A stretch of 64,000 nucleotides of DNA from Streptomyces sp. ISL-11. Its GTDB lineage: Bacteria > Actinomycetota > Actinomycetes > Streptomycetales > Streptomycetaceae. Location of the stretch: NCBI RefSeq assembly GCF_018614525.1, contig NZ_JAGGOL010000047.1, positions 1-64,000 on the forward strand, written 5' to 3'. Below the pieces are notes generated by a model that saw nothing but the letters and a program-made list of their open reading frames with translations, was not told the DNA's origin and did not search any database. Shown here piece after piece: positions 42,671-58,465 of this stretch. Made by a program: the position numbers and the translations under genes. Each line of letters starts with the position of its first letter. The first letter of the stretch is position 1.

Positions 42671-43612
42671 TCACCCCCTCTGCCCACGGTCCGTCACGGC
42701 GAGGAAATCCCGTATGTCCTCGACAAGTTGCCACGCCATGTCCTCAAGGACGTAGTGCCCGGCATACGGATAGAGGTGGAGTGACGCCCGGGGCAGGCGG
42801 CGTGTCCATTCGGCGAGGACGAGATCGTCGTAGAGGGGGTCGCGCATGCCCCAGCCGATGAAGACGGGCAGTTGGGTGAAGGTGACGAGGGCCTCGCCGA
42901 GCCGCTGGGCGTGGGGCCATCCGGCATCGGCCGGGCCGAGGGGGATGTCCTGTGCCCAGCGCACGAGCGCGGGCCGGTCCCGCTGCCGCCGGTAGGGGGC
43001 CAGGTAGGCGTCGCGGACGGCCTGTGGCAGCGGGCGGCGCGGGCCCTGCCGCAGGGCCATGTGCGCCACGGCGTTCGAGGCGTGCGCGAACCGGCCCACC
43101 CCCCGCCGCCTCAGGGCGTGGGTTCCCCACGGAAGCCGGTATCCGGGGGGCATGGGGAACGCGGCGGTGTTGAGCACGACGAGGCGGTCGACGACGCCGG
43201 GGTGGAGGTGTGACCACCACATGCCGACGGGCCCGCCCCAGTCGTGCACGACCAGCGTCCAGCCGCGCGTCGGTGCGCCCCGTTCGGCGATGAGGTGGTC
43301 CACGAGGCGCCCCAGATCCCGGGCGCGGATCTCGGCGAGGAGTTGTCCGTCCCTGTCGCGCGCCCGGTCGGACAGCCCCATTCCCCTCAGGTCGGGGGCG
43401 ATGCAGCGGTAGCGTCCCCGCAGCCCGAGGACGAGGTGGCGCCACATGTAGCTCCATGTGGGGTTGCCGTGGACCATGAGGACGGGTGCGCCCCGGCCCT
43501 CGTCCAGGTAGTGCTGGTGCCATGCGCCATGGCCGAACCAGTGCCCTTGGAAGGGGTAGTCCGGCAGGCGGCGTGCCTGCTCGGCGGAGAGGGGCGGTCC
43601 GTGATGGGTCAT
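42671..43612 (-). CDS. oleB: Alpha/beta hydrolase, OleB / haloalkane-dehalogenase-like (paralogue 1)
   Basis: The 313-aa protein has the Asp-nucleophile hydrolase set: MVHGNPTWSYMWRHLV (oxyanion/halide region), nucleophile Asp124 in VVHDWGGPVG, and the late His in AGHYVLED. A carboxylate may sit in GWGMRDPLYDD. OleB enzymes of olefin clusters have this architecture and decarboxylate beta-lactones to cis-alkenes. The start codon overlaps the oleD stop (ATGA) and it is the last gene of the leftward oleB2-oleD-oleB1 unit. The paralogue encoded two genes upstream has the same nucleophile position. The assignment as OleB comes from family plus the OleA/C/D neighbours. Confidence 0.8.
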   Translation of the reverse strand: MTHHGPPLSAEQARRLPDYPFQGHWFGHGAWHQHYLDEGRGAPVLMVHGNPTWSYMWRHLVLGLRGRYRCIAPDLRGMGLSDRARDRDGQLLAEIRARDLGRLVDHLIAERGAPTRGWTLVVHDWGGPVGMWWSHLHPGVVDRLVVLNTAAFPMPPGYRLPWGTHALRRRGVGRFAHASNAVAHMALRQGPRRPLPQAVRDAYLAPYRRQRDRPALVRWAQDIPLGPADAGWPHAQRLGEALVTFTQLPVFIGWGMRDPLYDDLVLAEWTRRLPRASLHLYPYAGHYVLEDMAWQLVEDIRDFLAVTDRGQRG

Positions 43613-44589
43613 GACGTCTGTCGCAGACGTCGAAGTCCTTCACGGGTGCTGACCAGAGGCGTGTAACCCAGACGGGTGCGGGCGGCGGAGATGTCGAACC
43701 AGTTCGCGTACACCGCTCCCGCCACCGTGCAGCGGTCGAGCGGGGGTTCTCCGGGGAGGCGCAGCAGGCGCCATCCGCCCTCGCACAGCATGCCGGCCGT
43801 ACGGGCGAGGGAGTCGGGGACGCTCTGCAGGCGCGGGCTGCGGCCCAGGGCACGGAAGAAGGCGGTCAGTGTCCGGGCGAAGGTGCAGGGCCTGCCCTGG
43901 GAGATGAAGTACGGGCGGCCCGCGGCCGGCGTACCGGGGCGGACGCGATCGAGGGCCAGGAGGTGGGCGTGGGCGGCGTTGTCCACGTAGACGGTGTCGA
44001 CGCGCTTGCGGCCGCCGCCGGGCAGCGGGAGGACGCCGAAGCGGGCGGCGCGCAGGAGCCGGGGCGCGAAGTGCGGATCACCGGGGCCCCAGATGCAGTG
44101 GGGGCGCAGGGCGGCTGTGGCCAGGTTGGGCCCGTTGGCTGCCAGGACCAGGCGTTCGGCGGTGGCCTTGGAGCCCGGGTAGGGGCCCAGGGGCCTACGG
44201 GCGTAGGGCAGGGCTTCGTCGCCGCCGTCGATGTCGGTGTTGTCGAAGACCACGCTGGGGCTGGAGGTGTAGATGAGTGTGCCGATGCGGTGGTGCAGGC
44301 AGGCGTCCACGACATGGCGGGTGCCGGTGACATTGGTCGCGAAGAAGGAGGCGGGGTCGCCCGCGAGGCCCACGCGGGCGGCGGTGTGCAGGACCGCGTC
44401 GCAGCCGGCGGCCGCGTGACGGACGGTGCCGGAGTCGCGGATGTCGCCCAGGCGCTGGTCGGTGCCGAGTGTCGCGAGAGGCCGGCTGAAGCGACGGTGC
44501 AGTGACCTGACCTCGTGCCCGGCGGCGGTCAGCTGTTGACACAGTGCGTGACCGAGGAAGCCGCTGCCTCCGGTGACCAGGACCCTCAT
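43609..44589 (-). CDS. oleD: NAD(P)-dependent 2-alkyl-3-oxoalkanoate reductase, OleD-like (extended SDR)
   Basis: The 326-aa protein has the extended-SDR nucleotide motif VTGGSGFLGHALC at its N-terminus and the catalytic Y-x3-K (YPGSK, Tyr137 and Lys141), with Ser/Thr in YTSSPSVVF. It resembles 3-beta-hydroxysteroid dehydrogenase/epimerase proteins, the family of OleD and lipstatin LstD. It would reduce the beta-keto acid made by OleA to a beta-hydroxy acid. It overlaps both neighbours by 4 bases, so the three genes form one translationally coupled unit. The frame is open far upstream, but the ATG at 44589 fits the family start. Confidence 0.85.
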   Translation of the reverse strand: MRVLVTGGSGFLGHALCQQLTAAGHEVRSLHRRFSRPLATLGTDQRLGDIRDSGTVRHAAAGCDAVLHTAARVGLAGDPASFFATNVTGTRHVVDACLHHRIGTLIYTSSPSVVFDNTDIDGGDEALPYARRPLGPYPGSKATAERLVLAANGPNLATAALRPHCIWGPGDPHFAPRLLRAARFGVLPLPGGGRKRVDTVYVDNAAHAHLLALDRVRPGTPAAGRPYFISQGRPCTFARTLTAFFRALGRSPRLQSVPDSLARTAGMLCEGGWRLLRLPGEPPLDRCTVAGAVYANWFDISAARTRLGYTPLVSTREGLRRLRQTS

Positions 44590-45581
44590 CGGCGCTCTCC
44601 GCGGCCGTCCTGGGGTCGTACGGGCGCGGGGGCGTCGAGGACGTTCGCGCGCCGTCCGGCGGTGTCGAGGAAGTGCCGGATCTCCGGGACGAGTTCGGCG
44701 CGCGCGTCCTCCAGCACGTAGTGGCCCGCCTCCGGGTAGCGGAGCACCCGGGCGTGCGGGAAGCGCCGTTGCCACTCGTCGGCCAGTGGCGGTCGCAGGA
44801 CCGGGTCGCGCATGCCCCAGCCGACCAGCAGTGGTATCTGTCGCAGGGCGGGCAGCATCTGTTCCACGACGGCCAGCAGCGACCAGCCCGGATCGGCGCG
44901 GGTGAGGGGGACGTCCTGGATGAAACGGGAGAGGGCGGCGCGGTGCCGGCGACGGCGGTAGGGCGCGGTGAAGGCGCGGCGGACCTCGGCGGGCATCGGT
45001 GTGGTCACGCCCAGCCGCGCTGCCCCGTACGCCCAGCCCGGCGTGCTGTGGGCCGCCAGGGCGCTGACGGGGCGCAGCCGCAGCAGGCGGAACCACCGAG
45101 GAGGAAGGCCGTGCTCGGGAAAGCGGAACACGGTGGTGTTCAGCACGACGACCCGGTCCACCCGCTCCGCGTTCAGGCAGGCCCAGGCCAGCGCGATGGG
45201 TCCGCCCCAGTCGTGGGCCGCCACCGTCCAGCCGCGGTCCGGTGCCCCGTGCTCGTCGACCAGGTGACGGACCAGGTCGTCGAGCGCGGCGATCTGGTAA
45301 CCCGCCAGGAGCGCGGGCAGCGGCGCGGCCAGGCGCTCGGACAGGCCCATGCCCAGCAGGTCCGGTACGACGCACCGGTAGGCGTCGCGCAGCCCTGTCA
45401 CCAGATGGCGCCAGGCGTAACTCCAGGCGGGGTTGCCGTGCACCATCAGCACCGGGGGGCCGGTGCCCTCGTCCAGATAGTGCTGCCGGCCATCGGCGTG
45501 CTCGAACCACCGTGAGGTGAACGGGTAGTCCGGCAGGCCGGAGCCTTCGGTCGCTGCGCACACGGAACGGCCCTTCGTCAT
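44586..45581 (-). CDS. oleB: Alpha/beta hydrolase, OleB / haloalkane-dehalogenase-like (paralogue 2)
   Basis: The 331-aa protein is placed at ATG 45581 with GAAGGG upstream; an ATG 9 codons earlier has no ribosome-binding site. It shows MVHGNPAWSYAWRHLV, nucleophile Asp124 in AAHDWGGPIA, GWGMRDPVLRPP and the catalytic His in AGHYVLED. It is clearly homologous to the hydrolase encoded two genes downstream but diverged across the cap domain. Two OleB-type enzymes in one cluster is unusual; one may have changed from beta-lactone decarboxylation to hydrolysis or another release step. It is first in its operon, divergent from the OleC-like gene. Confidence 0.78.
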   Translation of the reverse strand: MTKGRSVCAATEGSGLPDYPFTSRWFEHADGRQHYLDEGTGPPVLMVHGNPAWSYAWRHLVTGLRDAYRCVVPDLLGMGLSERLAAPLPALLAGYQIAALDDLVRHLVDEHGAPDRGWTVAAHDWGGPIALAWACLNAERVDRVVVLNTTVFRFPEHGLPPRWFRLLRLRPVSALAAHSTPGWAYGAARLGVTTPMPAEVRRAFTAPYRRRRHRAALSRFIQDVPLTRADPGWSLLAVVEQMLPALRQIPLLVGWGMRDPVLRPPLADEWQRRFPHARVLRYPEAGHYVLEDARAELVPEIRHFLDTAGRRANVLDAPAPVRPQDGRGERR

Positions 45582-45909
45582 ACGGCCCTTCGGTGGTCGT
45601 CCCTTCATAGGGTGCCGTCAACTGCGAGGATCTGGCGAAGAGTTCATGCCCCGGAGTGGACCGTTCCGCGCCAGGGCGTGCCTGATTCACTCGTGTAGGT
45701 GATGCCCGAGGACGGCGCCACCCGCATGCTGGTAAGGCAGGACCGTCCTGGCCGTGACCCGCCGGCCCGCCCCCCCCGAGCCGGACCGGGACCGTGCGGC
45801 ATTCCCGGGCAGCCGCCCCCTGCCCGTCCATCGCTGGGGCCGGGCGCGGTGCCGGTGTGGTGCCCGCCCGCTCACCACCGTCGACCACACCGCACCGGAG
45901 GTGTCCGCC
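45582..45909. promoter_or_regulatory. Divergent promoter region between oleB2 and oleC
   Basis: This 328-bp interval separates the leftward oleB2-oleD-oleB1 unit from the rightward ligase gene and must serve both. An in-frame extension of the ligase to GTG 45754 exists, but its 52 residues look non-conserved and Arg/Pro-rich. I see no convincing operator palindrome. Confidence 0.5.
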
Positions 45910-47523
45910 GTGGCCCCGCTGGCCCGTACCGTCCTGTCCGCCCTGCGGGACGCGCCCGAGGGCGTGTGCCTGTACTACCCGAAGGGCCGGCGGGGTTTCA
46001 CGGCGCTCAGCAACGCCGACGCCGCCGCGAGGAGCCTGTCGACCGCCGCGGCCCTGGCCCGTGCCGGGATCCGGCCCGGGCACCGCGTGGCCGTACTGAC
46101 CCGCGACCCGGTGGAGCTGGGGACCTGCGTGCTGACCCTCACCGGCATGGGCGCCGTCCCCGTCCTCGTCGACGGCTCCCTGCCACTGCCCATGATGCGG
46201 CGGTGCCTGGCGGCCGCGGCGCCGGACGCCCTGCTGGCCGAGCCGCTCGCCCACGTCGCGGCCCGCCTCCTGGGCTGGGGCGGGGGCACCGTCCGCCACC
46301 GCGTGGTGGCCGGTCCGCCGGCCTGGCCCGGCCGGACCCTGGACCGGCTGCGCCGCGCCGTGCCTCCCTGGCAGGTCATGACCGACTCCCGCGACGACGC
46401 CCCGGCGATGGTCGTCTTCACCTCCGGTGCGACGGGGCCACCCAGGGGAGTTCTCTACCGGCACGGCACCGTACGGGCGCAGGTCCAGGCGCTCCCGCGG
46501 AGCCTGGACCTGGCCGGGCGGACGGTGGTCGCCGCGTTCGTACCGGCCGCGGTCCTGGGACCGCTGCTCGGTGCCACCACGGTGATCCCCCGCCTCGACC
46601 TGACCCGGCCCACCCGCGTCCGCGCCCGCGCCCTGGCGGATGCCGTGAACCGCACGGGCGCCGACACGCTGCTCGGTTCGCCCGCGCTCCTGGACCGCCT
46701 GGCCCGGCACTGCGTCCGCACGCTCACACCCCTGCCCACCCTGCGGGATGTCTTCTCCTTCGGCGCCTCCTTGCCCTACGCGGTCCTCGACCGGCTGCGG
46801 GTGTGCCTGACCGCCGCCGCGACCGTCCACAGCGTCTACGGAGCCACCGAGGCCCTGCCGGTCAGCACGATCGACCACCGGGAGCTGCTCCCGCTGCGCT
46901 CCGCCACCGCCCGGGGGCACGGGGTGTGCCTGGGCCGGCCCGTACCGGGTGTCACCGTCCGCGTCCTGCCGCTGGATCCGCTGTCCCCGGAGCGGGACAC
47001 CGAAGGGCTGCCGTGCGGTGTGGCCGGTGAACTCGCCGTCGCGGGTGCGAACGTCAGCCCGGCCTACCTGGATCCGGCGGACACCCGGGCGGCGAAGGCG
47101 TACGGGGCGTACGGCGGCGTCGTCCACCGCATGGGCGACGTCGGCTCGCTGGACGCACAGGGCCGCGTCTGGTTCTACGGCCGCCTCGCGCACCGGCTGC
47201 GCACCGCGGAAGGAGACGTGTTCACCGAGCGGGTCGAACCGGCCCTCGACGCCCTGCCCGGCGTGCGCCGCACCGCGCTGGTCGGCGTCGGCGCGGCCAC
47301 CGCGCAGCGCCCGGTGGTGATCGTCGAGCCGGAGCCGGGGGCACCGCGCGCGGCTCGCGCGATGGTGCGCCGCGCGATCCAGGAGGCGCTGGAAGGTCTG
47401 GAGCGGCCGGTGACCGGTGCGGTGCCGGTGCTGTTCCATCGGTCACTGCCGGTGGACCACCGGCACGGCGCCAAGATCGACCGTGCGCGGCTGGCCCGGT
47501 GGGCCGCCGCCCGGCTCACGTGA
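45910..47523 (+). CDS. oleC: AMP-forming acyl ligase, OleC-like beta-lactone synthetase
   Basis: The roughly 537-aa protein is placed at GTG 45910 (GGAGG at 45897-45901); GTG 45754 would extend it. It has the ANL-superfamily P-loop VFTSGATGPPRGVLYRHG (normally TSGTTGxPKG; the lysine is Arg here), the YGATEALPVS motif and the hinge region RMGDVGSLDAQGRVWFYGRLAHR. The C-terminal VDHRHGAKIDRARLARWA matches the ending typical of OleC (VDxRHNAKIxREKLAxWA). OleC uses ATP to close a beta-hydroxy acid to a beta-lactone. It converges on the first PKS gene, 66 bases apart. Confidence 0.85.
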   Translation: MAPLARTVLSALRDAPEGVCLYYPKGRRGFTALSNADAAARSLSTAAALARAGIRPGHRVAVLTRDPVELGTCVLTLTGMGAVPVLVDGSLPLPMMRRCLAAAAPDALLAEPLAHVAARLLGWGGGTVRHRVVAGPPAWPGRTLDRLRRAVPPWQVMTDSRDDAPAMVVFTSGATGPPRGVLYRHGTVRAQVQALPRSLDLAGRTVVAAFVPAAVLGPLLGATTVIPRLDLTRPTRVRARALADAVNRTGADTLLGSPALLDRLARHCVRTLTPLPTLRDVFSFGASLPYAVLDRLRVCLTAAATVHSVYGATEALPVSTIDHRELLPLRSATARGHGVCLGRPVPGVTVRVLPLDPLSPERDTEGLPCGVAGELAVAGANVSPAYLDPADTRAAKAYGAYGGVVHRMGDVGSLDAQGRVWFYGRLAHRLRTAEGDVFTERVEPALDALPGVRRTALVGVGAATAQRPVVIVEPEPGAPRAARAMVRRAIQEALEGLERPVTGAVPVLFHRSLPVDHRHGAKIDRARLARWAAARLT

Positions 47524-47589: not shown

Positions 47590-50500
47590 TCACGGCACCG
47601 GCGGCGCGATGGCATCCCGCCGTTGGTCGGACGCGTGGATGCCCAGGCGATCGTGGATCAGGCGGGCGAAGTGGGTCAGGGTCCGTCCGCTGGCCATGAG
47701 TTCGCTGGGCGGGATGTGGACGTCGAAGAACTCGCGGGCCTTGAGGATGAATTCGGCACCCATGAGGGAGTCCAGGCCGAGGTCGTCCAGGCGACGGTCC
47801 GGGTCCAGTTCGGACGGGTCGGTGTGCAGGACGGTGGCGAGGTGGCGGGCCAGCATGTCGGTGATGGCGCGCACGGCGTCCTCGGGAGTCATCGCGGCCA
47901 GGGCGCGCAGCAGCTCCTCGCGGGTCTCGTCCGTGTCCGCGGCACCGCTGGGGACGAGGTTGGCGAAGCGGGGGGTGGCGAGGGAGGGCAGGAGGCGGCG
48001 GGCGCGGGCCCAGCGGTAGCGGCCGACGCCGGCGACGTCGGTGTCCGCGGTGAGGAGGTGGTCCGCGGCGGTGAACGCGTCGGTGGGGGAGACGGGATCG
48101 AAGCCGAGGCCGGTCATGGTGGCCGCGAGGTTGTTGCGGGCGACGTATCCGGTGTCGGCGATGGGGCCCCAGGCGATCGCCGTGGCGGTGCGCCCGGCGT
48201 GGCGGCGGGCACGCGCGAGAGCCTCCAGATAGGCGTTTCCGGCGACGTACGGTGCCTGTGCGAGGTTGCCGGTGGCCGCGGTGACCGATGAGTACAGCAG
48301 GAAGAGGTCGAGGTCGCGGTCGGCGGTGAGCCGGTCGAGGACGTCCGCGCCGGCGGCTTTGGGGGCGAGGACGGCGGCGAAGCGGTCGTCGGTGAGGTCG
48401 GCCAGCGGGGCATCGTCGAGGTGCATGGCGCAGTGGACCACGCCGCGCAGGGGATGCCCGGTGGCATCCACGGCGGCGATCACCCGGCGTACGGCCGCCT
48501 CGTCGGTGACGTCGGCGGCGTACGGGGTGGCCCGTACCCCGCGCCGGGCGAGCCGGTCGAGGACGTCGGCCGCCTCCGGCGCGTCGGCTCCCCGGCGGCC
48601 GAGCAGGGCCAGGTGCCGGGCTCCCCGGTCGGCCAGCCAGTCGGCGGTGGCGGCGCCGAAGCCGCCGAGCCCGCCGGTGACCAGGTACGTCCCCGCCGGG
48701 TTCAACGCCGGTACGGAAAGGGCGGGTTCGGTGGGAACGGGCTCGTCCAGCGGGTCGAAGGCGATCACGACCTTGCCGGTGTGGCGGGAGTGCTGGAGCA
48801 GCCTGAACGCCTCGTCGACGCGGGCGGCCGGGTAGACGGAGTGCGGGAGCGGACGGTACTCGCCGGAGGCCATCCGCGTGAGGGTGTCGAACATCAGACG
48901 AGGGCCGCGTACGGGGTCGAACACGAGGCTGTCGAGATTGAAGCCGAGAAAGGTGATGCTGCGGTGGAAGGGGCGCAACAGGAGCGGGTTGTTGAAGAAG
49001 ATGTCGCGCTTGCCGAGCTCGATGAAGCGGCCCATGGGGCGCAGCAGGTCGAGGCTCTGGGCGATGGCCTCGCCGCTGAGGGAATTGACGACGATGTCGA
49101 CGCCCTTCCCGCCGGTCAGTTCGCGTACCCGGGGTGCGAAGTCGAGGGTGCGGGAGTCCAGGGCGTGCTCGACGCCGAGGGTGCGCAGCAGATCGCGTTT
49201 GGTCTCGGTGCCCGCTGTGGCGATGACGCGCAGGCCCAGGGACCGGGCGCACTGGATGACGGCCAGGCCGACGGCTCCGGCTCCGCCGTGCACCAGCACC
49301 GTCTCGCCGGGGAGCGGCCGGGCCTCGTCGACGAGGGTGTGGTGGACGGTGAAGAAGACCACCGGGAAGGTCGCCGCCTCGGCGAAGCTCATGCCGTCGA
49401 GGATGGGCGAGGCGGCCGCGGCGGGCATGACGGAGTGGGAGGCGAGCGCCGCGGGCATCAGCCCGGCGACCCGGTCGCCCACCGCGTACGCGGTGACCCC
49501 GGCACCGACGGCCCTCACGATGCCCGCCCCGTCGGTGCCCAGTCCGCGGCTGAGCGCGGTGCCCTCGACGGCCTCGGGTGGCAGCAGCCCGTTGGCGCGC
49601 ATCGGATCGCGGTAGTTCAGTGCGACGGCCCGCATTTCCACCAGGATCTCGCCGGGCCCCGGGTAAAGCGGTTCGATCCGGCGCCACACGAGCCGGCGGG
49701 AGAACCCGGGGTTGCGTACTTCCAGGACGAACGGTGAACCGGAGGGGACGGCGGTGGGCTGATCGGCCGGGCGCTGGACCTGGCGGGGTACGAACCGGCC
49801 GCCCGGGGTGAGCACGATCTCGTCCTCGTCGGTGGGCGCCCGCAGTTCGTCGGCCAGGCGGCGGGCGTCGACGGCCGGGTCGCCGGTGCGGTCGAGGGAG
49901 ATCCGGCGCATCCGCAGGCCGGGCTGTTCGTTGGCCAGGGTGCGGGCGGCGCCCCAGATCGCCGCGTCGGCGGGGTGGGCGGGGCGCTCCGGGGCGGGGA
50001 ACAGGCCGCTGGGACGGGCGACCAGCCACACCTCGGGGTGGGTTCCGCCCTCCCGCCCGGCGCAGGCGGCGGCCAGGGCCCGCAGGACGGCGGCGCGGCG
50101 CGTCGTGCCGGCGACCGGCCCTCGCGGGTCGTCCGGGCTGTCCGGGTGCTCGCCCAGGAGCAGGACGACGCCGGTGGCGTCGGCGGGCAGCGCTGTGGCC
50201 CAGGCGGCGGAGTCGTCGGTGGCGGCGGTGATGCCGGCGCCGCCCAGCAGGCCGGACAGCGCCTGGGCGGTGGGTGTCTCGCCGGGCGTCTCGGGGGAGA
50301 TGACCCAGGCGGCGCCCGGTGCCGGCGCGGGCGGGGCGGGTTCGGCGGCCGGGAGATGTCCGGCGGCGGCCAGGAGGACGGAGCGGTCGTCGGTGCCCGT
50401 CCGTACGGTGCCGGTGAAACCGCACTCCCTGAGGAGCGGCACCCACTGGTCCCGGGCCGGCAGCACCGTTTCCGGGCGCAGCGTACGGTCGCGGCGCTGC

Positions 50501-53500
50501 CAGAACGCCTCGGTGCCGCCGCGGAGAAGGGCCGGCCGCCGCGCATCGTGCGACTCCGCGGCGAGCAGATGCCCGCCAGGGGCGAGCAGGGTGTGGACGC
50601 GGCGCAGCCCTTCGGCCAGGTCGGCGACGGCGTGCAGGGCGTCGTCGGCGACGACCAGGTCGAATCCGCCGCCGTCGAAGCCCTGGACGGCCGGGTCGGT
50701 GTCCAGGTCGAGGGTCCGGTATTCGACGAAGTCGTACGCGGCGAAGCGGTGGCCGGCACCGGCGAAGCCCGCCGACGAACGGTCGGTGCAGGTGTAGCGG
50801 GTGCGGTCCGCCGGAAGCAGGGGGAGCAGGGCCGCGGTGAGACCGTGGGTCCTGGCGCCGAGTTCCAATACGCGCAGCGGGCGGTCGCCGGGCCACCGGC
50901 GGACGATCTCGCCGAGCAGGGCCTGGGCGACGCGGTGGGTGAAGCGGCGGGCGGGTGCGACGGCGTACAGCTGCTCGTACGCGCTGTCACCGGCCTGGAG
51001 GAGTTCCTGTGCCTCCGGGGCATCGCGCAGCACCGCGGGCAGGCGCCGCAGGTGCGCGTTGAGGTGGGTGGTCTCCGTGATGAAGGCCGGATGATCCTCC
51101 ACCAGGGCCCGCAGCAGCCCCTCGTGGCGGGGCTCGGCGCCGGTCAGCCGCCATCGGCCGTCGCCGGCGGGCCGGGCCAGTGCGTGCCGGGTCATGAGCG
51201 GGAGCATCAGCAGCACCAGCCGCCGGTGCCGGGGCTGGAGTCCGCCGGCCATGAGGTCGGACAGGCCGAACGCGGCGGCCGGGTCGGTGAGCAGGCCGGC
51301 CACGGCCGAGGCCCAGCAATGGGCGGCCGTCTCGTCGACGGCCGCCGTGAAGCGGTCGTGACCGGTCTCCCGCAGGGCGTCCCGCAGTCCGGTGATCCGG
51401 TCCTGGACGGCGGCCGCCAGGTCCGCCGGCGGGGGCAGCGGCGAAGGGCCGGCCGGGGCCGCCGGGTGCGGTGCGGCACGCAGGACCGTCCGCTGGACGG
51501 TCAGCGGGGTGTGCTGGGTGTTGTACGCGCGCCGGGTGCGGAACCCGTCGATCTCGGCGGTGACGGTGCCGTCCTCGTCGGCATAGACGACGTCCCAGCG
51601 GAACTCCGTCTCGGTGTGGCTGCGCCGGCGCAGGTGGATGACGCCGGTGGGTGCCGGGGTGCGCCACACCCTCACCGAGTCGAACGTGGACGGCAGATAC
51701 GCCTCGCCGCCGCGCATGAGCCGCTCCACCAGCGCGACGGTGGCCTGGAAGGGGCCGTCCAGCAGGACCGGGTGCACCGTGTACGCGTCGCTCGGGTCCT
51801 CGTGCCGGTAGGAGGCCAGCAACTCGTCCTCGCCGACGCGCAGTTCGCGCAGCAGCTGGAAGGCCGGGCCGACGTCGAGACCGACACTGTGGCACGTACG
51901 GTAGAAATCCGGGCCGCTGACCGTGCGGGGGCAGCGTGCGCGAACCGCCGTGGGGTCGAGCGGAGCGGAAGCCGTGCCGAGCAGGGTGCGGACCTGGGCG
52001 CGTACGACCGTATGGCTCTCGGTTCCGCGGCCTTCGCTGTTGCTGATGGTCAGCGCGCCGTCCTCGGGCGTCACGGAGGTCTGCATCCGGGCCGTACCGG
52101 GGTCGGGCCAGGCGATGGGGAGCGGACTGATGATGCCCAGGTGACGCACCTCCACCGGCCGGTCCAGCGCCCGCCGTCCCGCGGACAGCGCCATCTCGAC
52201 GTACGCGGCGGCGGGCATCAGCACCGATCCGGCGATCCTGTGGTCGCCCATCCAGGGCACCAGCTGGGGCTCGATGGCGCCTTCCCACACCGGGTGGGGA
52301 GCCGGGAGGCGCTCGCCGAGCAGCGGGTGGTCGAGCCGGCCGGTGCCGCTGGTGCGGATGACCAGGTCCTGCGGGGTGCCCAGCCAGTGCCGTTCGCGCT
52401 GCCAGGGGTAGGCCGGGAGGTCGGTCACCCGGCCCGGGCGGGGGAAGTGGGTCCGCCAGTCGACGTGGGCACCGGCCGCGAGCAGGGCAGCGACGGCCGC
52501 GGCCGTCTCGCGGGGGCCGTCGCCGTCGCGGTGCAGGGTGGAAACGTACGTGGCGTCGGTGCGCCGCAGGTAGGGGCGCAGCACCGGGTGCGGTCCGATC
52601 TCCACGAGCATGTCGGCGTGATCGGCGAGGACGCGGGTGACGGCTTCGTGGAAGCGGACCGGCTCGCGGACGTTGCGCCACCAGTAGCCGGCGGTGAGCT
52701 CTTTGCCGGCCAGCGCCGTGCCGGTGACGGTGGAGACGAAGGGGATACGGGTGGTGGCGGGCTCCAGTCCGGCCAGCGCGGTCCGCAGCGGGTCCGCGAT
52801 GGGGTCCATGGCGCGGCTGTGGAACGCGTGGTCGAGGCCGAGGTCCTGGAAGAAGACGTCCCGGGCCGTCAGTTCCGCGCTGAGGGCGGCCAGGGCCTCC
52901 GGGTCCCCGGCGACGGTGACGCTCCGGTCGTCGTTGATGCCGGCGATCTCCAAGGCGGGCGCGTACGCGGACAGTTCCTGCCGGGCCGCCTGCTCGGGCA
53001 GTCCGACGGCGGCCATCCGGCCGGTGCCCGCGGTGACGCCCTGGGCGCGGCTGCGTTCGGCGATCACCCGGGCGGCCTGCTCCAGGGTCAGCGCCCCGGC
53101 GGCATGGGCCGCGGCCACTTCGCCGACGCTGTGCCCGACGACGGCCGCCGGACGCAGTCCGCTCGCTGCCAGCAGGGCGACCAGCCCCACCTGCACGGCG
53201 AACAGGGCGGGCTGGGCGATCTCGGTACGCTGCCAGCGGGACGCGAGGGGCTCGGCCAGCTCCGCCGTCACCGACCAGCCCAGGTGCGGGGCGAGCGCGG
53301 CATCGGCCTGTTCGACGGCGGTGCGGAAGACCGGCGCGCCGTCCAGGAGGTCGGCGGCCATGCCGGGCCACTGGGAGGCGTTGCCCGAGAAGACGAACGC
53401 CACCGTGCCCCGCTCGGCCTTCCGGACCTTGGCCCCGTGGGCGGGTGTGTCCGCGAAGAGCCGGTCCAGCCGGTCCGCGGCTTCGTCCGGTCCGCAGGCC

Positions 53501-54984
53501 AGGACGGCGGCGCGGTGCAGGTGGGTGCTGCGGCGCAGGGTGCTGGTGTGCGCCAGGTCGTAGAACTCCTCGGGCGCCGCCTCCCGAAGCCGCGCCGCGA
53601 CGCGCGCGGCCAGTTCCCGCAGCGCCTTGGCCGAACGGGCGGAGATCACGACGGGAAGCGTGCCGCCGTCGCGGTCGTCCCCGGGCGGCGGAGCCGGTGG
53701 AGCGGTGAGGACGACGTGGGCGTTGGCTCCGCCGAAGCCGAAGGAGTTCACGCCCACCGCCGCCCGGGCCGGGCGGGGGAGTTCGACCGGCTCGACCGTG
53801 GGGGCAAGGCCGAGTCCGGCGAAGTCGATGTCCGGGTTGAGCGGCCGGGCGTGCAGGGTCACCGGGGCCACGCCGTGCCGCAGGACGAGCAGGGCCTTGA
53901 ACAGGCTCGCCATGCCGGAGGCCGGTTCCAGGTGCCCCAGGTTGGACTTGACCGAGCCGACCGGCAGCGGCCCCACGGTCCGGCGCCGGCCCAGGGCCTG
54001 CCCGATCGCCCGGGCCTCGGCCGGGTCCCCGGCGGGGGTGCCGGTGCCGTGGGCCTCGAAGTACACCAGATCGTCCGGGTCCACCCCCGCCTGCTCGTAC
54101 ACGGTGCGCAGCAGGGCTTCCTGCGCCTGGAAGCTGGGCAGGGCCAGGCCGTGGGTGCGGCCGTCGCAATTGGTGCCGGTGCCGGCGATGACCGCGTGGA
54201 TCCGGTCGCCGTCGGCCAGCGCGTCGGCCAGCCGTTTGAGGACGACCACGCCCCCGCCCTCCGCCCGGACGAAACCGTCGGCCTCGGCGGAGAAGGCCGC
54301 GCACCGGCCGCGCGGTGACAGCATGCCCGCGTGCGAGAAGCCCGCGAAGGAGAAGGGGCTGCCCAGCACGTTGATGCCGCCGGCGAGCGCGGTGCGGCTG
54401 GTGCCGTCCAGCACGGTGCGGCAGGCGCGGTCGAGTGCCACCAGCGCGGAGGAGCAGGCGGTGTCGATCGCCATGCTCGGGCCGCGCAGGTCGAAGCAGT
54501 ACGAGAGACGGTTCGCCGCGATCGACAGCGTGGACCCGCTCATCATGTACGGATTGGCGTACTGTTCGATGGTCCCCTGGACCGTCCCGTAGGACGGGTC
54601 GGAAATCCCGACGAAGACACAGGTGTCCGACCCGGCCAGCGATTCGGCGGCGATGCCGGCGTCGTCCAGGGCCTCCGCGGCCAGCTCCAGCAGGATCCGC
54701 TGCTGCGGGTCCATGGCCGCGGCCTCCTTCGGAGCGATGCCGAAATAGGCCGCGTCGAACCCGGCGACATCGTCGAGGAAGCCCCCGGCCGCGGTGTAGC
54801 TCCGGCAGGGGCGGAGAGCGCCGGGGTCCACGAAACGGGTCTTGTCGAACCGGTCCGCCGGGATCTCGCCGACCGCGTCCCTGCCCTCGCGCAGGGCCGC
54901 CCACAGCCCGCCCAGGTCCGAGATCCCTCCAGGCAGTCGGCAGCCGGCGCCCACGACGGCCAGCGCACGGTCGTTGACGTCCAT
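47590..54984 (-). CDS. Single-module highly reducing type I polyketide synthase, KS-AT-DH-(MT)-ER-KR-ACP
   Basis: The roughly 2464-aa protein starts at ATG 54984; a GTG 8 codons upstream is possible. Domains in order are as follows. KS has Cys in DTACSSAL at about residue 171, EAHGTGT at 308 and KSNLGH at 343. AT has GHSVGE at about 616 and HAFHSR at about 716, pointing to malonyl-CoA. DH has HRIAGSVLMP at about 913 and LDGPFQ at about 1071. The MT-like region is at about 1350-1480 with a degenerate motif I (LELGARTHG). ER spans about 1765-2050 with HGGAGAVGL at 1898. KR has VTGGLGGFG at about 2100, an LDD motif and a YVAGN segment. The C-terminal ACP has LGLDSLMG at about 2405. There is no thioesterase, so release needs another enzyme. 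Confidence 0.95.
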   Translation of the reverse strand: MDVNDRALAVVGAGCRLPGGISDLGGLWAALREGRDAVGEIPADRFDKTRFVDPGALRPCRSYTAAGGFLDDVAGFDAAYFGIAPKEAAAMDPQQRILLELAAEALDDAGIAAESLAGSDTCVFVGISDPSYGTVQGTIEQYANPYMMSGSTLSIAANRLSYCFDLRGPSMAIDTACSSALVALDRACRTVLDGTSRTALAGGINVLGSPFSFAGFSHAGMLSPRGRCAAFSAEADGFVRAEGGGVVVLKRLADALADGDRIHAVIAGTGTNCDGRTHGLALPSFQAQEALLRTVYEQAGVDPDDLVYFEAHGTGTPAGDPAEARAIGQALGRRRTVGPLPVGSVKSNLGHLEPASGMASLFKALLVLRHGVAPVTLHARPLNPDIDFAGLGLAPTVEPVELPRPARAAVGVNSFGFGGANAHVVLTAPPAPPPGDDRDGGTLPVVISARSAKALRELAARVAARLREAAPEEFYDLAHTSTLRRSTHLHRAAVLACGPDEAADRLDRLFADTPAHGAKVRKAERGTVAFVFSGNASQWPGMAADLLDGAPVFRTAVEQADAALAPHLGWSVTAELAEPLASRWQRTEIAQPALFAVQVGLVALLAASGLRPAAVVGHSVGEVAAAHAAGALTLEQAARVIAERSRAQGVTAGTGRMAAVGLPEQAARQELSAYAPALEIAGINDDRSVTVAGDPEALAALSAELTARDVFFQDLGLDHAFHSRAMDPIADPLRTALAGLEPATTRIPFVSTVTGTALAGKELTAGYWWRNVREPVRFHEAVTRVLADHADMLVEIGPHPVLRPYLRRTDATYVSTLHRDGDGPRETAAAVAALLAAGAHVDWRTHFPRPGRVTDLPAYPWQRERHWLGTPQDLVIRTSGTGRLDHPLLGERLPAPHPVWEGAIEPQLVPWMGDHRIAGSVLMPAAAYVEMALSAGRRALDRPVEVRHLGIISPLPIAWPDPGTARMQTSVTPEDGALTISNSEGRGTESHTVVRAQVRTLLGTASAPLDPTAVRARCPRTVSGPDFYRTCHSVGLDVGPAFQLLRELRVGEDELLASYRHEDPSDAYTVHPVLLDGPFQATVALVERLMRGGEAYLPSTFDSVRVWRTPAPTGVIHLRRRSHTETEFRWDVVYADEDGTVTAEIDGFRTRRAYNTQHTPLTVQRTVLRAAPHPAAPAGPSPLPPPADLAAAVQDRITGLRDALRETGHDRFTAAVDETAAHCWASAVAGLLTDPAAAFGLSDLMAGGLQPRHRRLVLLMLPLMTRHALARPAGDGRWRLTGAEPRHEGLLRALVEDHPAFITETTHLNAHLRRLPAVLRDAPEAQELLQAGDSAYEQLYAVAPARRFTHRVAQALLGEIVRRWPGDRPLRVLELGARTHGLTAALLPLLPADRTRYTCTDRSSAGFAGAGHRFAAYDFVEYRTLDLDTDPAVQGFDGGGFDLVVADDALHAVADLAEGLRRVHTLLAPGGHLLAAESHDARRPALLRGGTEAFWQRRDRTLRPETVLPARDQWVPLLRECGFTGTVRTGTDDRSVLLAAAGHLPAAEPAPPAPAPGAAWVISPETPGETPTAQALSGLLGGAGITAATDDSAAWATALPADATGVVLLLGEHPDSPDDPRGPVAGTTRRAAVLRALAAACAGREGGTHPEVWLVARPSGLFPAPERPAHPADAAIWGAARTLANEQPGLRMRRISLDRTGDPAVDARRLADELRAPTDEDEIVLTPGGRFVPRQVQRPADQPTAVPSGSPFVLEVRNPGFSRRLVWRRIEPLYPGPGEILVEMRAVALNYRDPMRANGLLPPEAVEGTALSRGLGTDGAGIVRAVGAGVTAYAVGDRVAGLMPAALASHSVMPAAAASPILDGMSFAEAATFPVVFFTVHHTLVDEARPLPGETVLVHGGAGAVGLAVIQCARSLGLRVIATAGTETKRDLLRTLGVEHALDSRTLDFAPRVRELTGGKGVDIVVNSLSGEAIAQSLDLLRPMGRFIELGKRDIFFNNPLLLRPFHRSITFLGFNLDSLVFDPVRGPRLMFDTLTRMASGEYRPLPHSVYPAARVDEAFRLLQHSRHTGKVVIAFDPLDEPVPTEPALSVPALNPAGTYLVTGGLGGFGAATADWLADRGARHLALLGRRGADAPEAADVLDRLARRGVRATPYAADVTDEAAVRRVIAAVDATGHPLRGVVHCAMHLDDAPLADLTDDRFAAVLAPKAAGADVLDRLTADRDLDLFLLYSSVTAATGNLAQAPYVAGNAYLEALARARRHAGRTATAIAWGPIADTGYVARNNLAATMTGLGFDPVSPTDAFTAADHLLTADTDVAGVGRYRWARARRLLPSLATPRFANLVPSGAADTDETREELLRALAAMTPEDAVRAITDMLARHLATVLHTDPSELDPDRRLDDLGLDSLMGAEFILKAREFFDVHIPPSELMASGRTLTHFARLIHDRLGIHASDQRRDAIAPPVP

Positions 54985-55251
54985 CCTCAGCCCCCGTCCG
55001 GTTCCCACATATGGCCGGTTCCGTATACCTACCCGGCCCCGAATCGGTCATGCGACCATTGACTCGTGTCAGGTAAGTCATCGAAAAATCAGGGCAGTTC
55101 ACCTTCCATCCCCATTGAGGCAACGTGACCCTGTCGGCTCAGGCGCCCCGCCCGGCCGGGGTGGGGGCGCAGCACGATCGGTGGGATCGGCCGAAGTGCC
55201 CATGAGACGCTGCGTATGTGATGCTCACATCGGAAAGGTCTGGTCCCGCCC

Positions 55252-56304
55252 ATGCCGCTGCCGAACCGTGATCCGGTGCCACCTCCCCGCCGTGCCCGCC
55301 TGGTGTCGACCGCTGTGCACCTGCCACCCCAGTACCGGACCATGGAGCAGGCCCGGGCGGCCATCGCCGCGGCGAAGAGCCCTTTCGTGCCTCCGCCCGG
55401 CCTGCTGGAGGACATCACGGGCGTCCGAGGCGTTCACGTGAAGTCCGGTGACGAGCAGGCGTCCGACCTCGCGGTCGCGGCGGCCGCCAAGGCGCTGGAC
55501 ATGGCGGGAGCGGGCGTCGGCGAGCTCGACCTGCTGCTGTTCGCCTCCAGTGGCCAGGACCTTGTCGAACCCGCCACCGCCCACATCGTGGCCGCCAAAC
55601 TCGGGGCCTTCTGCCCGGTGTTCGACGTGAAGAACGCCTGCAACAGCGTGCTCAACGCCCTGGAGACGGCCGCGGCCTTCATCGAGACCGGCCGGCACCG
55701 CACTGTCCTGATCGCCTGTGGCGAGACGGCGACGCTCACCGCCCGCTGGCACGTGCCCGACTACGAGACGTTCATGCGTCACCTGCCCGGCTACACCGTC
55801 TCCGATGCCGGTGCCGCCCTTCTCCTGACCGCGGGCCCGGCGGGACCGGACGACCCCGGAGTGCTCCACACGGTCTTCGCCGCGGACTCCTCCGCCTGGG
55901 AGGCGTGCACGGTCGCGGCCGGTGGCTCGATGCACCCGCGTTCCACGCACGACGACCACGTGTGCCTCCGGCTCAACGAGGACCAGTTGTCCGAGGCCGG
56001 CCGCCACATGGCCTCCTTCGTGGTGGAGTACGCCACGGACGAGATGGCGCTGGTGCGCCGGAGCGCGTTCGTCGCCGTCCACCAGATCTCCATGCCACAG
56101 TTCCACGAGGCCCGCGCCCTGCTCGGACTGCCGGAGAGCCGCTTCCTGGCCACGGTGGACAGGTACGGCAACGCGGCCTCCGCGTCCCTCCCGCTGCAAC
56201 TGGCCCTGGCCCAGCAGGCCGATCGCGTCATGCCCGGAGACCTCGTCGCGCTCGTCGGGCTGGCCAGCGGGTTCAGCATCGGGCTGGCGTTGATCCGGCT
56301 CTGA
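55252..56304 (+). CDS. oleA: KAS III-like thiolase-fold enzyme, OleA-like head-to-head condensing enzyme
   Basis: The 350-aa protein (ATG 55252) has the FabH/OleA catalytic triad: Cys130 in FDVKNACNS, His277 in AVHQISMPQ and Asn307 in DRYGNAASAS. Features closer to OleA than FabH are GVHVKSGDEQASDLA, LVEPATAHIVAAKLG, the CGETA segment and the ending LVALVGLASGFSIG, where FabH has a different C-terminal signature. OleA performs a non-decarboxylative Claisen condensation of two acyl thioesters. It is divergent from the first PKS gene, across 267 bases. I infer that it accepts chains from the PKSs, which lack thioesterases. Confidence 0.8.
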   Translation: MPLPNRDPVPPPRRARLVSTAVHLPPQYRTMEQARAAIAAAKSPFVPPPGLLEDITGVRGVHVKSGDEQASDLAVAAAAKALDMAGAGVGELDLLLFASSGQDLVEPATAHIVAAKLGAFCPVFDVKNACNSVLNALETAAAFIETGRHRTVLIACGETATLTARWHVPDYETFMRHLPGYTVSDAGAALLLTAGPAGPDDPGVLHTVFAADSSAWEACTVAAGGSMHPRSTHDDHVCLRLNEDQLSEAGRHMASFVVEYATDEMALVRRSAFVAVHQISMPQFHEARALLGLPESRFLATVDRYGNAASASLPLQLALAQQADRVMPGDLVALVGLASGFSIGLALIRL

Positions 56305-56636: not shown

Positions 56637-57764
56637 CTAGACGGGCTGGGCCCGCTGCTCGTCGAGCGGGTCCGGCTTTTCGCGCAAGCGCACGGCGAGG
56701 GCGGCGATGTCGTCGTCGAGGCCGCCTCCGCTGTAGCGGAGGAGGTCACGGTGGAGACCGTCGAGCAGCTCGCGAGGCCGTACCGGGGTGCGCTGCCGCA
56801 TCCAGTCCGCCAGGGGGAAGAACTCGCCGTCGCGGTCGCGGGCCTCGGTGACGCCGTCGGTGTAGAGGAGCAACTGGTCGCCACGAGCGAGGCCGAAGGT
56901 GTCGATGGTGTAGTGATCGCCGATCAGGTCCGCGAGGTTGAGAAGCGGTGAAGGGGAGGTGGGACTCAGGATGCGGAGCCCCTCCCGGGTCAGGAGCAGT
57001 GGTGGCGGATGCCCGCAGTTGAGGATCCGGATGAGGCCGTCCTCGTACGGGATCTCGACGAGCACGGCGGTGGTGAAGCGCTCCATCAGGTCCTCGGGGG
57101 GAAAAGCGGCGCTGTAACGGGTGCTGCTGGCCTCCAGGCGGCGTGCGATGCCGCCCAGATCGGGCTCGTCGTAGGCCGCCTCCCGGAACGAATTGACCAC
57201 CGTCGCGGCCGCGCCCACCGCCGGCAGCCCCTTGCCCCGCACATCGCCGATGAGCAACCGGACACCGAACCGCGTGTCGGCCACCTCGTAGAAGTCGCCA
57301 CCGATGCGGGCCTCCGCGGCGGCCGCGAGATACAGCGACTCGATCTCCATGCCTCCGAAGCAGCGCGGCATCGGGCTCAGGACCACCTGCTGCGCCGCGT
57401 CGGCGACGAGCCGGACCTGGAACAGGGACTTCTCCCGCTGGAGCCGGACATGACTTCCGTACGCGGCCGCCACGGTGACCGCGACGATGCCCGCCACCGT
57501 GTACCAGGCCCCGAGGCCGGGGAAGACGAGGCTGAGACCGATCATGAGCAGAAAGCAGACCGTCCCCAGCGCCACGGTGGGAAGCACGGGCCACATGGCG
57601 GCCGCGAGGGCGGGGGCCGCGGGCAGGATGCGGCTGAAGGCCATGTCCGGGGGCGTGGCGTAGGCGAGGCCGGCGATGACCGCGGTCAGGATCACTGGGG
57701 ACAGGAGAACGAGAGACCACCGGCCGTGGGGACGGCGGAGACGCGGCTGCCCACGCTTGACCAT
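56637..57764 (-). CDS. SpoIIE/PP2C-type serine phosphatase with N-terminal membrane segments
   Basis: The roughly 375-aa protein is placed at ATG 57764; the frame is open 37 codons further. It has about three transmembrane helices at residues 15-100 (LVLLSPVILTAVIAGLAYA and two more) and then a SpoIIE domain. Metal-binding segments are RIGGDFYEVADT, LIGDVRGKGLPA, NCGHPPPLLL and LLLYTDGVTEARD. Such membrane-anchored phosphatases act on anti-anti-sigma factors. It lies between oleA and a tetR gene inside the PKS-ole region, but may simply be an older neighbour. No partner anti-sigma gene is adjacent. Confidence 0.9.
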   Translation of the reverse strand: MVKRGQPRLRRPHGRWSLVLLSPVILTAVIAGLAYATPPDMAFSRILPAAPALAAAMWPVLPTVALGTVCFLLMIGLSLVFPGLGAWYTVAGIVAVTVAAAYGSHVRLQREKSLFQVRLVADAAQQVVLSPMPRCFGGMEIESLYLAAAAEARIGGDFYEVADTRFGVRLLIGDVRGKGLPAVGAAATVVNSFREAAYDEPDLGGIARRLEASSTRYSAAFPPEDLMERFTTAVLVEIPYEDGLIRILNCGHPPPLLLTREGLRILSPTSPSPLLNLADLIGDHYTIDTFGLARGDQLLLYTDGVTEARDRDGEFFPLADWMRQRTPVRPRELLDGLHRDLLRYSGGGLDDDIAALAVRLREKPDPLDEQRAQPV

Positions 57765-57871
57765 GATCCATATGATATCGGGAATGGCGGCATATGGCTC
57801 TTTTTGGCAATCTGCGGCCATGGGAACACGTTCCGCGATGGAGGTCGGTGCCGTCCCGCTGAGCAGGAGGG

Positions 57872-58465
57872 TCATTCATGCGGGACGCGGACGGGATGGG
57901 GGGTGAGGATCCGGCGGAGGACGGCTTCGATGTCGGCGCGGGCGGGTGGCCGGCTGGCGGCGAGGCCGCGCAGGGTGAGGCCGTTCATGGCGGCGGCGGC
58001 GGCCGCGGTGGCGGTGACGGGGTCGGTGTAGTGCGCGAGGGTCTGGATGCTGAGCTCGGTGTACTGGTCGGCGATCGGCCGGAGGGCGGGGCGGCGCAGG
58101 GCGGCGAGGTAGAGCTCGAACTCCATGACCTGCTGTCCGCGCTGGGGTCCGAGGCAACTGAGCAGGACGTCGGTGAGCAGGACCGCGAGCTGGTCGGCGG
58201 TGAGTCCGGGGCGCTGGGCGCACCAGTCGTCGAGGTAGGCCGCGTAGCGGTCGACGGACCGCTTGAGGGCAGCGGTGATGAGGTCGTCCTTGGTGGCGAA
58301 GTGGTAGGTGGTCGCCCCCAGGGGCACGCCGGCCTCTTCGGCGACGGCGCGATGGGTAAGGCCCTCGATGCCGCGCTCCGCGATGACCTTCTCGGTGGCC
58401 GCGGCGATCTCTTCGATCCGCCGCTGAGGATCACGGCGACGGCGTGCGGGTTTCTCGGCGGCCAT
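57872..58465 (-). CDS. TetR-family transcriptional regulator
   Basis: The 197-aa protein has the TetR helix-turn-helix at residues about 15-60 (EKVIAERGIEGLTHRAVAEEAG then GATTYHFATKDDLI, in pieces) and a helical ligand-binding half with YHF-DDLI spacing typical of the family. It is the only DNA-binding regulator inside the PKS-ole region and is the best candidate for its control. A GTAC-GTGA-GTAC sequence at about 58503-58514, some 40 bases upstream of its start, may be an operator. The effector is unknown. Confidence 0.88.
   Translation of the reverse strand: MAAEKPARRRRDPQRRIEEIAAATEKVIAERGIEGLTHRAVAEEAGVPLGATTYHFATKDDLITAALKRSVDRYAAYLDDWCAQRPGLTADQLAVLLTDVLLSCLGPQRGQQVMEFELYLAALRRPALRPIADQYTELSIQTLAHYTDPVTATAAAAAAMNGLTLRGLAASRPPARADIEAVLRRILTPHPVRVPHE

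Follow-up and report, generated by a model that had tools for sequence, protein, structure and literature searches.

Anatomy of the oleB1-oleD-oleB2 unit

The window analysed here, 64,000 nucleotides of Streptomyces sp. ISL-11 (contig NZ_JAGGOL010000047.1, positions 1 to 64,000), contains three minus-strand open reading frames (ORFs) that encode two OleB-like hydrolases and an OleD-like reductase and are transcribed in the order oleB1, oleD, oleB2; a preliminary description of this DNA had listed them in window order. The first gene, oleB1 (44586..45581, minus strand, with an alternative start at 45608), codes for an alpha/beta hydrolase of 331 aa of the OleB/HLD-III type (HLD, haloalkane dehalogenase) with D124-D259-H287, N50 and W125. 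It is followed by oleD (43609..44589, minus strand), which codes for a 2-alkyl-3-oxoalkanoate reductase-like short-chain dehydrogenase/reductase of 326 aa with YPGSK at 137, and by oleB2 (42671..43612, minus strand), which codes for a second OleB/HLD-III-type hydrolase of 313 aa with D124-D258-H286, N50 and W125 and is the candidate accessory copy. Against the NF042422 equivalog, OleD scores 354 bits over residues 1-325 of 326, below the curated cut-off of 580.

Both junctions, oleB1/oleD and oleD/oleB2, are 4-base ATGA overlaps, and the two hydrolase genes flank oleD, as the preliminary description had it. Exact 4-base overlaps are ordinary in this window, where 6 of the 22 adjacent same-strand pairs of genes picked by a simple script based on G+C content at third codon positions have one, both ole junctions included, and we therefore discard the overlaps as special evidence. 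S. morookaense has the B1-D-B2 order too, with B1 and D overlapping by GTGA and D and B2 by ATGA. Pairwise ratios of nonsynonymous to synonymous substitution rates (dN/dS; Nei-Gojobori method, own script) are 0.16-0.29 in six B2 pairs and 0.25-0.43 in six B1 pairs; judged from these ratios, B1 and B2 are both under purifying selection. Because the order is conserved in S. morookaense and the dN/dS of both hydrolases is low, the unit is more than a chance arrangement.

B1 and B2 are 49% identical over 310 residues. Both belong to Abhydrolase_1; their top three NCBIfam models are haloalkane dehalogenases, all under the cut-off, and a sequence comparison with solved structures puts 8ckp and 8ooh first, two entries whose titles name the HLD-III enzyme DhmeA. 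In PMC10503415, X. campestris OleB is placed in HLD-III, the same subfamily as DhmeA, and the HLD-III catalytic pentad is given as a nucleophile Asp, an acid Asp, a His and the halide-stabilising Asn and Trp. All five residues are present in B1 and B2 of the window. As stated in the preliminary description, both proteins have the HDWGG Asp at position 124 and keep the His-containing GHYVLED motif, which starts at residue 285 in B2 and 286 in B1. The AlphaFold models (mean pLDDT 91.3 for B2 and 87.9 for B1) have a predicted alpha/beta hydrolase fold with a helical cap like that of HLDs; in Foldseek, DhmeA is the best PDB match of both models, with HLD-II enzymes (DhaA/HaloTag) close behind. The halide-stabilising Asn50 is kept in 35 of the 38 OleB-like rows that we collected, among them 4/4 B1; it is Ser in two of the four B2 orthologues, those of S. 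griseocarneus (L009) and S. morookaense (L010), and Ala in one distant row (L025). These counts were made after removal of L049 (230 aa), of matches of fewer than 200 query residues and of same-gene duplicates, and 35 of the 38 rows (all except L014, L026 and L060) entered the model alignments.

The two hydrolases had been described as differing through the cap region, and identity is indeed lowest there: with core and cap limits that we set ourselves, it is 80/134 (60%) in the N-terminal core, 31/79 (39%) in the cap and 36/78 (46%) in the C-terminal core. Between orthologues, the cap is less conserved in B2 (70-71% identity, two pairs compared) than in B1 (85-89%, two pairs). Relative to 28 other OleBs (a set without L025 and L026), mean identity of the C-terminal core is 51% for B1 and 45% for B2, and in place of F182, found in 27 of these 28, B1 has Trp and B2 has Val.

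Distribution of B1, B2 and single-OleB clusters

In a 38-row tree, the four B1 proteins (window, S. morookaense, G241 and G258) form one group and the four B2 proteins (window, S. morookaense, S. griseocarneus and S. olivoreticuli) another, both supported at 100/100. The sister relation between the groups reaches only 82/82 and, thus, a common in-cluster origin of B1 and B2 is not shown. We reject the possibility that B2 is a recent tandem duplicate of B1 because of their low identity and the two deep groups; similarly, B2 as a pseudogene or a redundant copy in decay is rejected because it is intact in four genomes at the low dN/dS given above.

B1 is accompanied by oleC and oleD in all four genomes in which it was found; oleA sits on a separate contig in S. 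morookaense and some 50 kb away in G258. B2 is the third gene of the operon in two of its four genomes (window and S. morookaense) and occurs without an OleC or OleD that we could find in the other two. In G241 and G258, oleA, B1, oleC and oleD are present and B2 is not, the B2 search (5 candidates scored) giving one match in each genome, which is B1. In an rpoB tree of ten genomes, the six B1/B2 genomes make up a single clade (100/99), each of whose two branches includes genomes with B2, so that B2 may be ancestral and have been lost from G241 and G258. The oleD stop of G241 still reads ATGA but, with A at about 5% of third positions in that gene, this is only a hint of a lost B2. Read from translations only, the gene after oleD encodes a xylulokinase in G241 and a PIG-L-like protein in G258; in S. 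morookaense, B2 is followed first by a PCMT gene and next by a PIG-L gene.

In S. griseocarneus and S. olivoreticuli, B2 orthologues 83% and 81% identical over the alignment stand alone, and DNA similarity to the window above 100 bits is confined to the OleB genes. The OleC profile reached at best 113 bits in these two genomes (75/84 and 75/104 candidates scored) versus 351-403 in three ole-cluster genomes; the window oleC as query gave no match at E up to 1e-20 in either genome with all candidates scored, and an OleD orthologue was found in neither. The lone B2 of S. griseocarneus (L009) has an MPAB/Lcp oxygenase and a FadD8-like ligase as neighbours. In S. olivoreticuli (L011 8809-20235, L099 14115-20000), an ADC-family (acetoacetate decarboxylase) gene, B2, a P450, a PfaA-like synthase and a KS/FabA-repeat (PfaC-like) synthase are co-oriented, and a search for OleA gave three matches of 31-32% identity and up to 68 bits. 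The PfaA-like ORF scores 1190.7 bits in hmmscan (cut-off 1010.1) and its best single stretch in the genome search 829 bits, which is below the cut-off; the best match of the same search in the window genome has 358 bits (16 of 97 candidates scored). In view of this last score, we do not claim a general link between B2 and polyunsaturated fatty acid (PUFA) synthases. Elsewhere in S. griseocarneus (L082 9779-18268), a highly reducing polyketide synthase (HR-PKS) and an OleA-like protein, 73% and 62% identical to those of the window, are encoded side by side; the 20 kb retrieved around them contain no match to oleBCD, and this pair may make a ketone or another head-to-head product.

Two OleBs are rare among the genomes covered. 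We searched 392 Streptomyces genomes with B2 (E up to 1e-45, 5 candidates scored per genome, so that a distant second copy could escape) and found an OleB-like match in 22, with one match in 20 and two in 2 (the window genome and G219, taken to be S. morookaense), in line with the earlier remark that one OleB is the norm. Among 150 relatives, a set overlapping the 392, six have a match and only the window genome has two. For 18 of the 20 single-match genomes, an OleC match lies inside the fetched locus of 3.7-4.0 kb; the remaining loci are L048, with OleA, no OleC in 3.5 kb and a stop in the OleB frame, and L049, at a contig end. A contig scan with B2 gave 18 loci, 12 of them in Streptomyces, and six of these 12 (L014-L018, L021) have one OleB in the order PKS, oleA, oleB, oleC, oleD. 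Another Streptomyces ole cluster type with A, B, C and D is present at L012 and L013 (and at L031-L033, 3.9 kb each); L012 and L013 have no close HR-PKS match in 20.9 kb, and L013 has a separate ketosynthase ORF adjoining OleA. S. alanosinicus (L022 4421-20934) has an OleB-like gene beside an HR-PKS, a P450, a terpene synthase and a methyltransferase; oleA, oleC and oleD are all without a match within this 20.9 kb locus, and the one OleC of the genome lies elsewhere. Neither a two-OleB unit nor a Streptomyces HR-PKS/ole cluster was found described in open-literature titles and the beginnings of abstracts, subscription literature being mostly unsearchable, and we know of no product of the window cluster.

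Surrounding genes and the proposed pathway

Divergent from oleB1 lies oleC (45754..47523, plus strand), which codes for a beta-lactone synthetase-like AMP-forming enzyme of 589 aa. Against the NF045786 equivalog (Xanthomonas beta-lactone synthetase), it scores 405 bits near full length with a cut-off of 900; judged by this rule, it is a relative of the Xanthomonas enzyme and not its equivalog. It is the single OleC-level match in the window genome, where the next-best match with the same profile has 104.9 bits. HR-PKS1 (47590..55008, minus strand) has the domain order KS-AT(HAFH)-DH-MT(degenerate motif)-ER-KR-ACP and no thioesterase domain in the Pfam scan. Its methyltransferase (MT) motif reads GARTHG, and the corresponding motifs are GARTHA in G241 and GTAPHA in S. 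morookaense; this degeneracy suggests that the MT domain is inactive in all three and makes methylation by PKS1 doubtful. The S. griseocarneus motif, GAGTLA, is one that we take to be nearer the usual motif.

The gene for an OleA-like condensing enzyme of 350 aa follows (55252..56304, plus strand; EPATA from 106, DVKNACN, HQIS and GNAAS). Its best PDB matches are titled 3-oxoacyl synthase III (3fk5, 3row and others), and the entries 3fk5 and 3row are presumably Xanthomonas OleA. The protein fits the OleA motif EPxx[AS]x(14,18)DxxNACL, as given in PMC7158056, except for the last letter (NACN for NACL). A second OleA-like gene of the window genome, 51% identical (L083 9275-10573), adjoins a 34% match to the PKS1 ketosynthase. 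Further along, a SpoIIE-type phosphatase gene (56637..57875, minus strand), a possible regulator, has a 4-base overlap with the gene for a TetR-family regulator (57872..58465, minus strand). HR-PKS2 (59211..64000, minus strand) runs off the window, with its start near contig position 66617 and a truncated oleA (residues 6-45) upstream at contig 66764-66883. Its identity is 78% with PKS1, but 94% and 97% with the two pieces in which the G258 PKS occurs; being far closer to the G258 PKS than to PKS1, it points to different histories of the two PKS genes. An Rfam scan of the window gave one tRNA.

The cluster probably links a pair of fatty chains of polyketide origin, first as a beta-lactone and finally as an alkene. 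Head-to-head condensation by OleA, reduction by OleD, lactonisation by OleC and decarboxylation by OleB are established Ole chemistry (PMC7064751, PMC7158056), and it has been proposed from experiments in PMC6463001 that OleA takes acyl groups straight from the acyl carrier protein (ACP) of a PKS-type (Pfa) synthase. In the pathway that we suggest, an HR-PKS, thought to be iterative, would build reduced acyl chains on its own ACP. OleA would take these chains, probably from the ACP, and condense two of them head to head to a 2-alkyl-3-oxo acid, which OleD would reduce before OleC would close the beta-lactone. B1 would then decarboxylate the beta-lactone to an alkene via Asp124. B2 would be an old, separately conserved OleB/HLD-III paralogue, kept as an accessory third gene and most likely working in parallel to B1 by opening, through hydrolysis or decarboxylation, lactones or esters derived from long-chain PKS products that are poor substrates for B1. 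Gene anatomy, catalytic residues, predicted fold, purifying selection and distribution come from the analysis itself, whereas the reactions and substrates of the whole scheme, including the supply of this OleA by an HR-PKS and the parallel action of B2, are inferred.

Roles of the two OleB-like hydrolases

We favor, with somewhat more confidence than doubt, a division of labor in which B1 is the beta-lactone decarboxylase of the pathway while B2 is an accessory hydrolase with a parallel role rather than the catalyst of a required subsequent reaction. The assignment of B1 to the pathway step comes from two clusters with oleA, oleC and oleD in which no other OleB was found. In the same two genomes, G241 and G258, A, C, D and B1 are present in the absence of B2 and, therefore, B2 does not look obligatory.

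Several observations weigh against this division. The B1 cap is the less typical of the two, with a mean identity to the 28 other OleBs of 36% versus 43% for the B2 cap, and R159, present in 25 of these 28, is Leu in 4/4 B1 and kept in 4/4 B2. Thus, B2 could have kept the older substrate range, and it is uncertain that B1 is the ordinary decarboxylase. Two distinct branches of the rpoB tree include genomes with B2 as the third operon gene, its start overlapping oleD, and this placement speaks for a function in the pathway there. Where B2 stands alone, it could be left over from an ole cluster that was lost; the genome of S. griseocarneus, moreover, is a draft assembly and has three OleA-like genes (62%, 47% and 42% identity). 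G258 is the weaker witness: its oleB1-oleD-oleC genes are bordered by fragments of oleA and of the end of a PKS, the whole oleA and the PKS are about 42-50 kb away, and this PKS reads in two frames, so that the cluster may be decaying.

Among the alternatives, we hold as a tentative possibility that B2 is the founder of an OleB-fold family that has departed from the beta-lactone pathway, acting on chains of PKS or PUFA synthases without OleC by a chemistry that tolerates the loss of Asn50; in the window, such an enzyme would have joined the ole operon and would give a second, non-olefin product. Slightly harder to credit is that B1 and B2 both decarboxylate beta-lactones, but different ones, such as stereoisomers or chain combinations from the two HR-PKSs. 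The full pentad in both window proteins, the constraint on both and the two HR-PKS genes that flank one whole oleA agree with this possibility. However, S. morookaense has both OleBs, but the stretches of 16 kb and 9.8 kb viewed show a single HR-PKS, split into two contig pieces (a collapsed repeat or a distant copy is possible), and B2 survives where no OleC was found. This survival also makes it unlikely that B2 is an enzyme of self-protection or clearance that hydrolyses leaked reactive beta-lactone: an optional gene at the operon end that encodes a hydrolase by family, with a less conserved cap that would suit broad substrates, would fit such a role, yet no pathway beta-lactone is expected in the genomes without a detectable OleC, in which B2 is conserved. 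The preliminary description had taken the retention of two OleBs as a sign of two successive reactions or two products; its two intact, constrained hydrolases with different caps stand, and two products, or a decarboxylase alongside a hydrolase, are conceivable, but two successive obligatory reactions, with the lactone decarboxylated or opened by one OleB and the resulting product handled by its partner, are very improbable, for all that overlapping starts and different caps would fit them, in light of the G241 and G258 clusters without B2 and the B2 genes for which no pathway was found.

Compared with known systems, the window cluster has both familiar and distinct elements. The window shares with OleABCD of Xanthomonas campestris the Asp-His-Asp and Asn-Trp pentad, the HLD fold and the oleA, oleC and oleD neighbours; by contrast, it has two OleBs with overlapping starts, a divergent oleC and HR-PKS genes in the cluster. 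Haloferax DhmeA (8ckp, 8ooh) has the same pentad and is the top fold match of both models, but it is archaeal and 30-32% identical in the fold alignments, and to our knowledge no ole cluster is known for it. In Shewanella/Photobacterium, where Pfa synthase and OleABCD make a 31:9 polyunsaturated hydrocarbon, a PKS-type synthase likewise feeds OleA, from the ACP in the authors' model; that synthase is, however, a PUFA synthase, while the window has single-module HR-PKSs and two OleBs in an actinomycete (PMC6463001). The oleACD beta-lactone clusters of Streptomyces toxytricini (lipstatin) and Nocardia brasiliensis follow the same OleA, C and D logic, but are described in PMC7064751 as being without OleB and keeping the lactone, whereas OleB is doubled in the window. 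The two-OleB unit is real, conserved and unusual, yet it lies inside a known enzyme family and pathway. The Nocardia brasiliensis product is, we assume, nocardiolactone.

OleB enzymes are known to turn beta-lactones into cis-alkenes by decarboxylation, and B1 and B2, the latter also present where no beta-lactone synthetase was found, offer a natural comparison of how decarboxylation and hydrolysis part ways within this fold. The pair is also useful for finding substrates of the poorly understood HLD-III enzymes, and ole clusters that include PKS genes are possible sources of new alkenes or beta-lactones.

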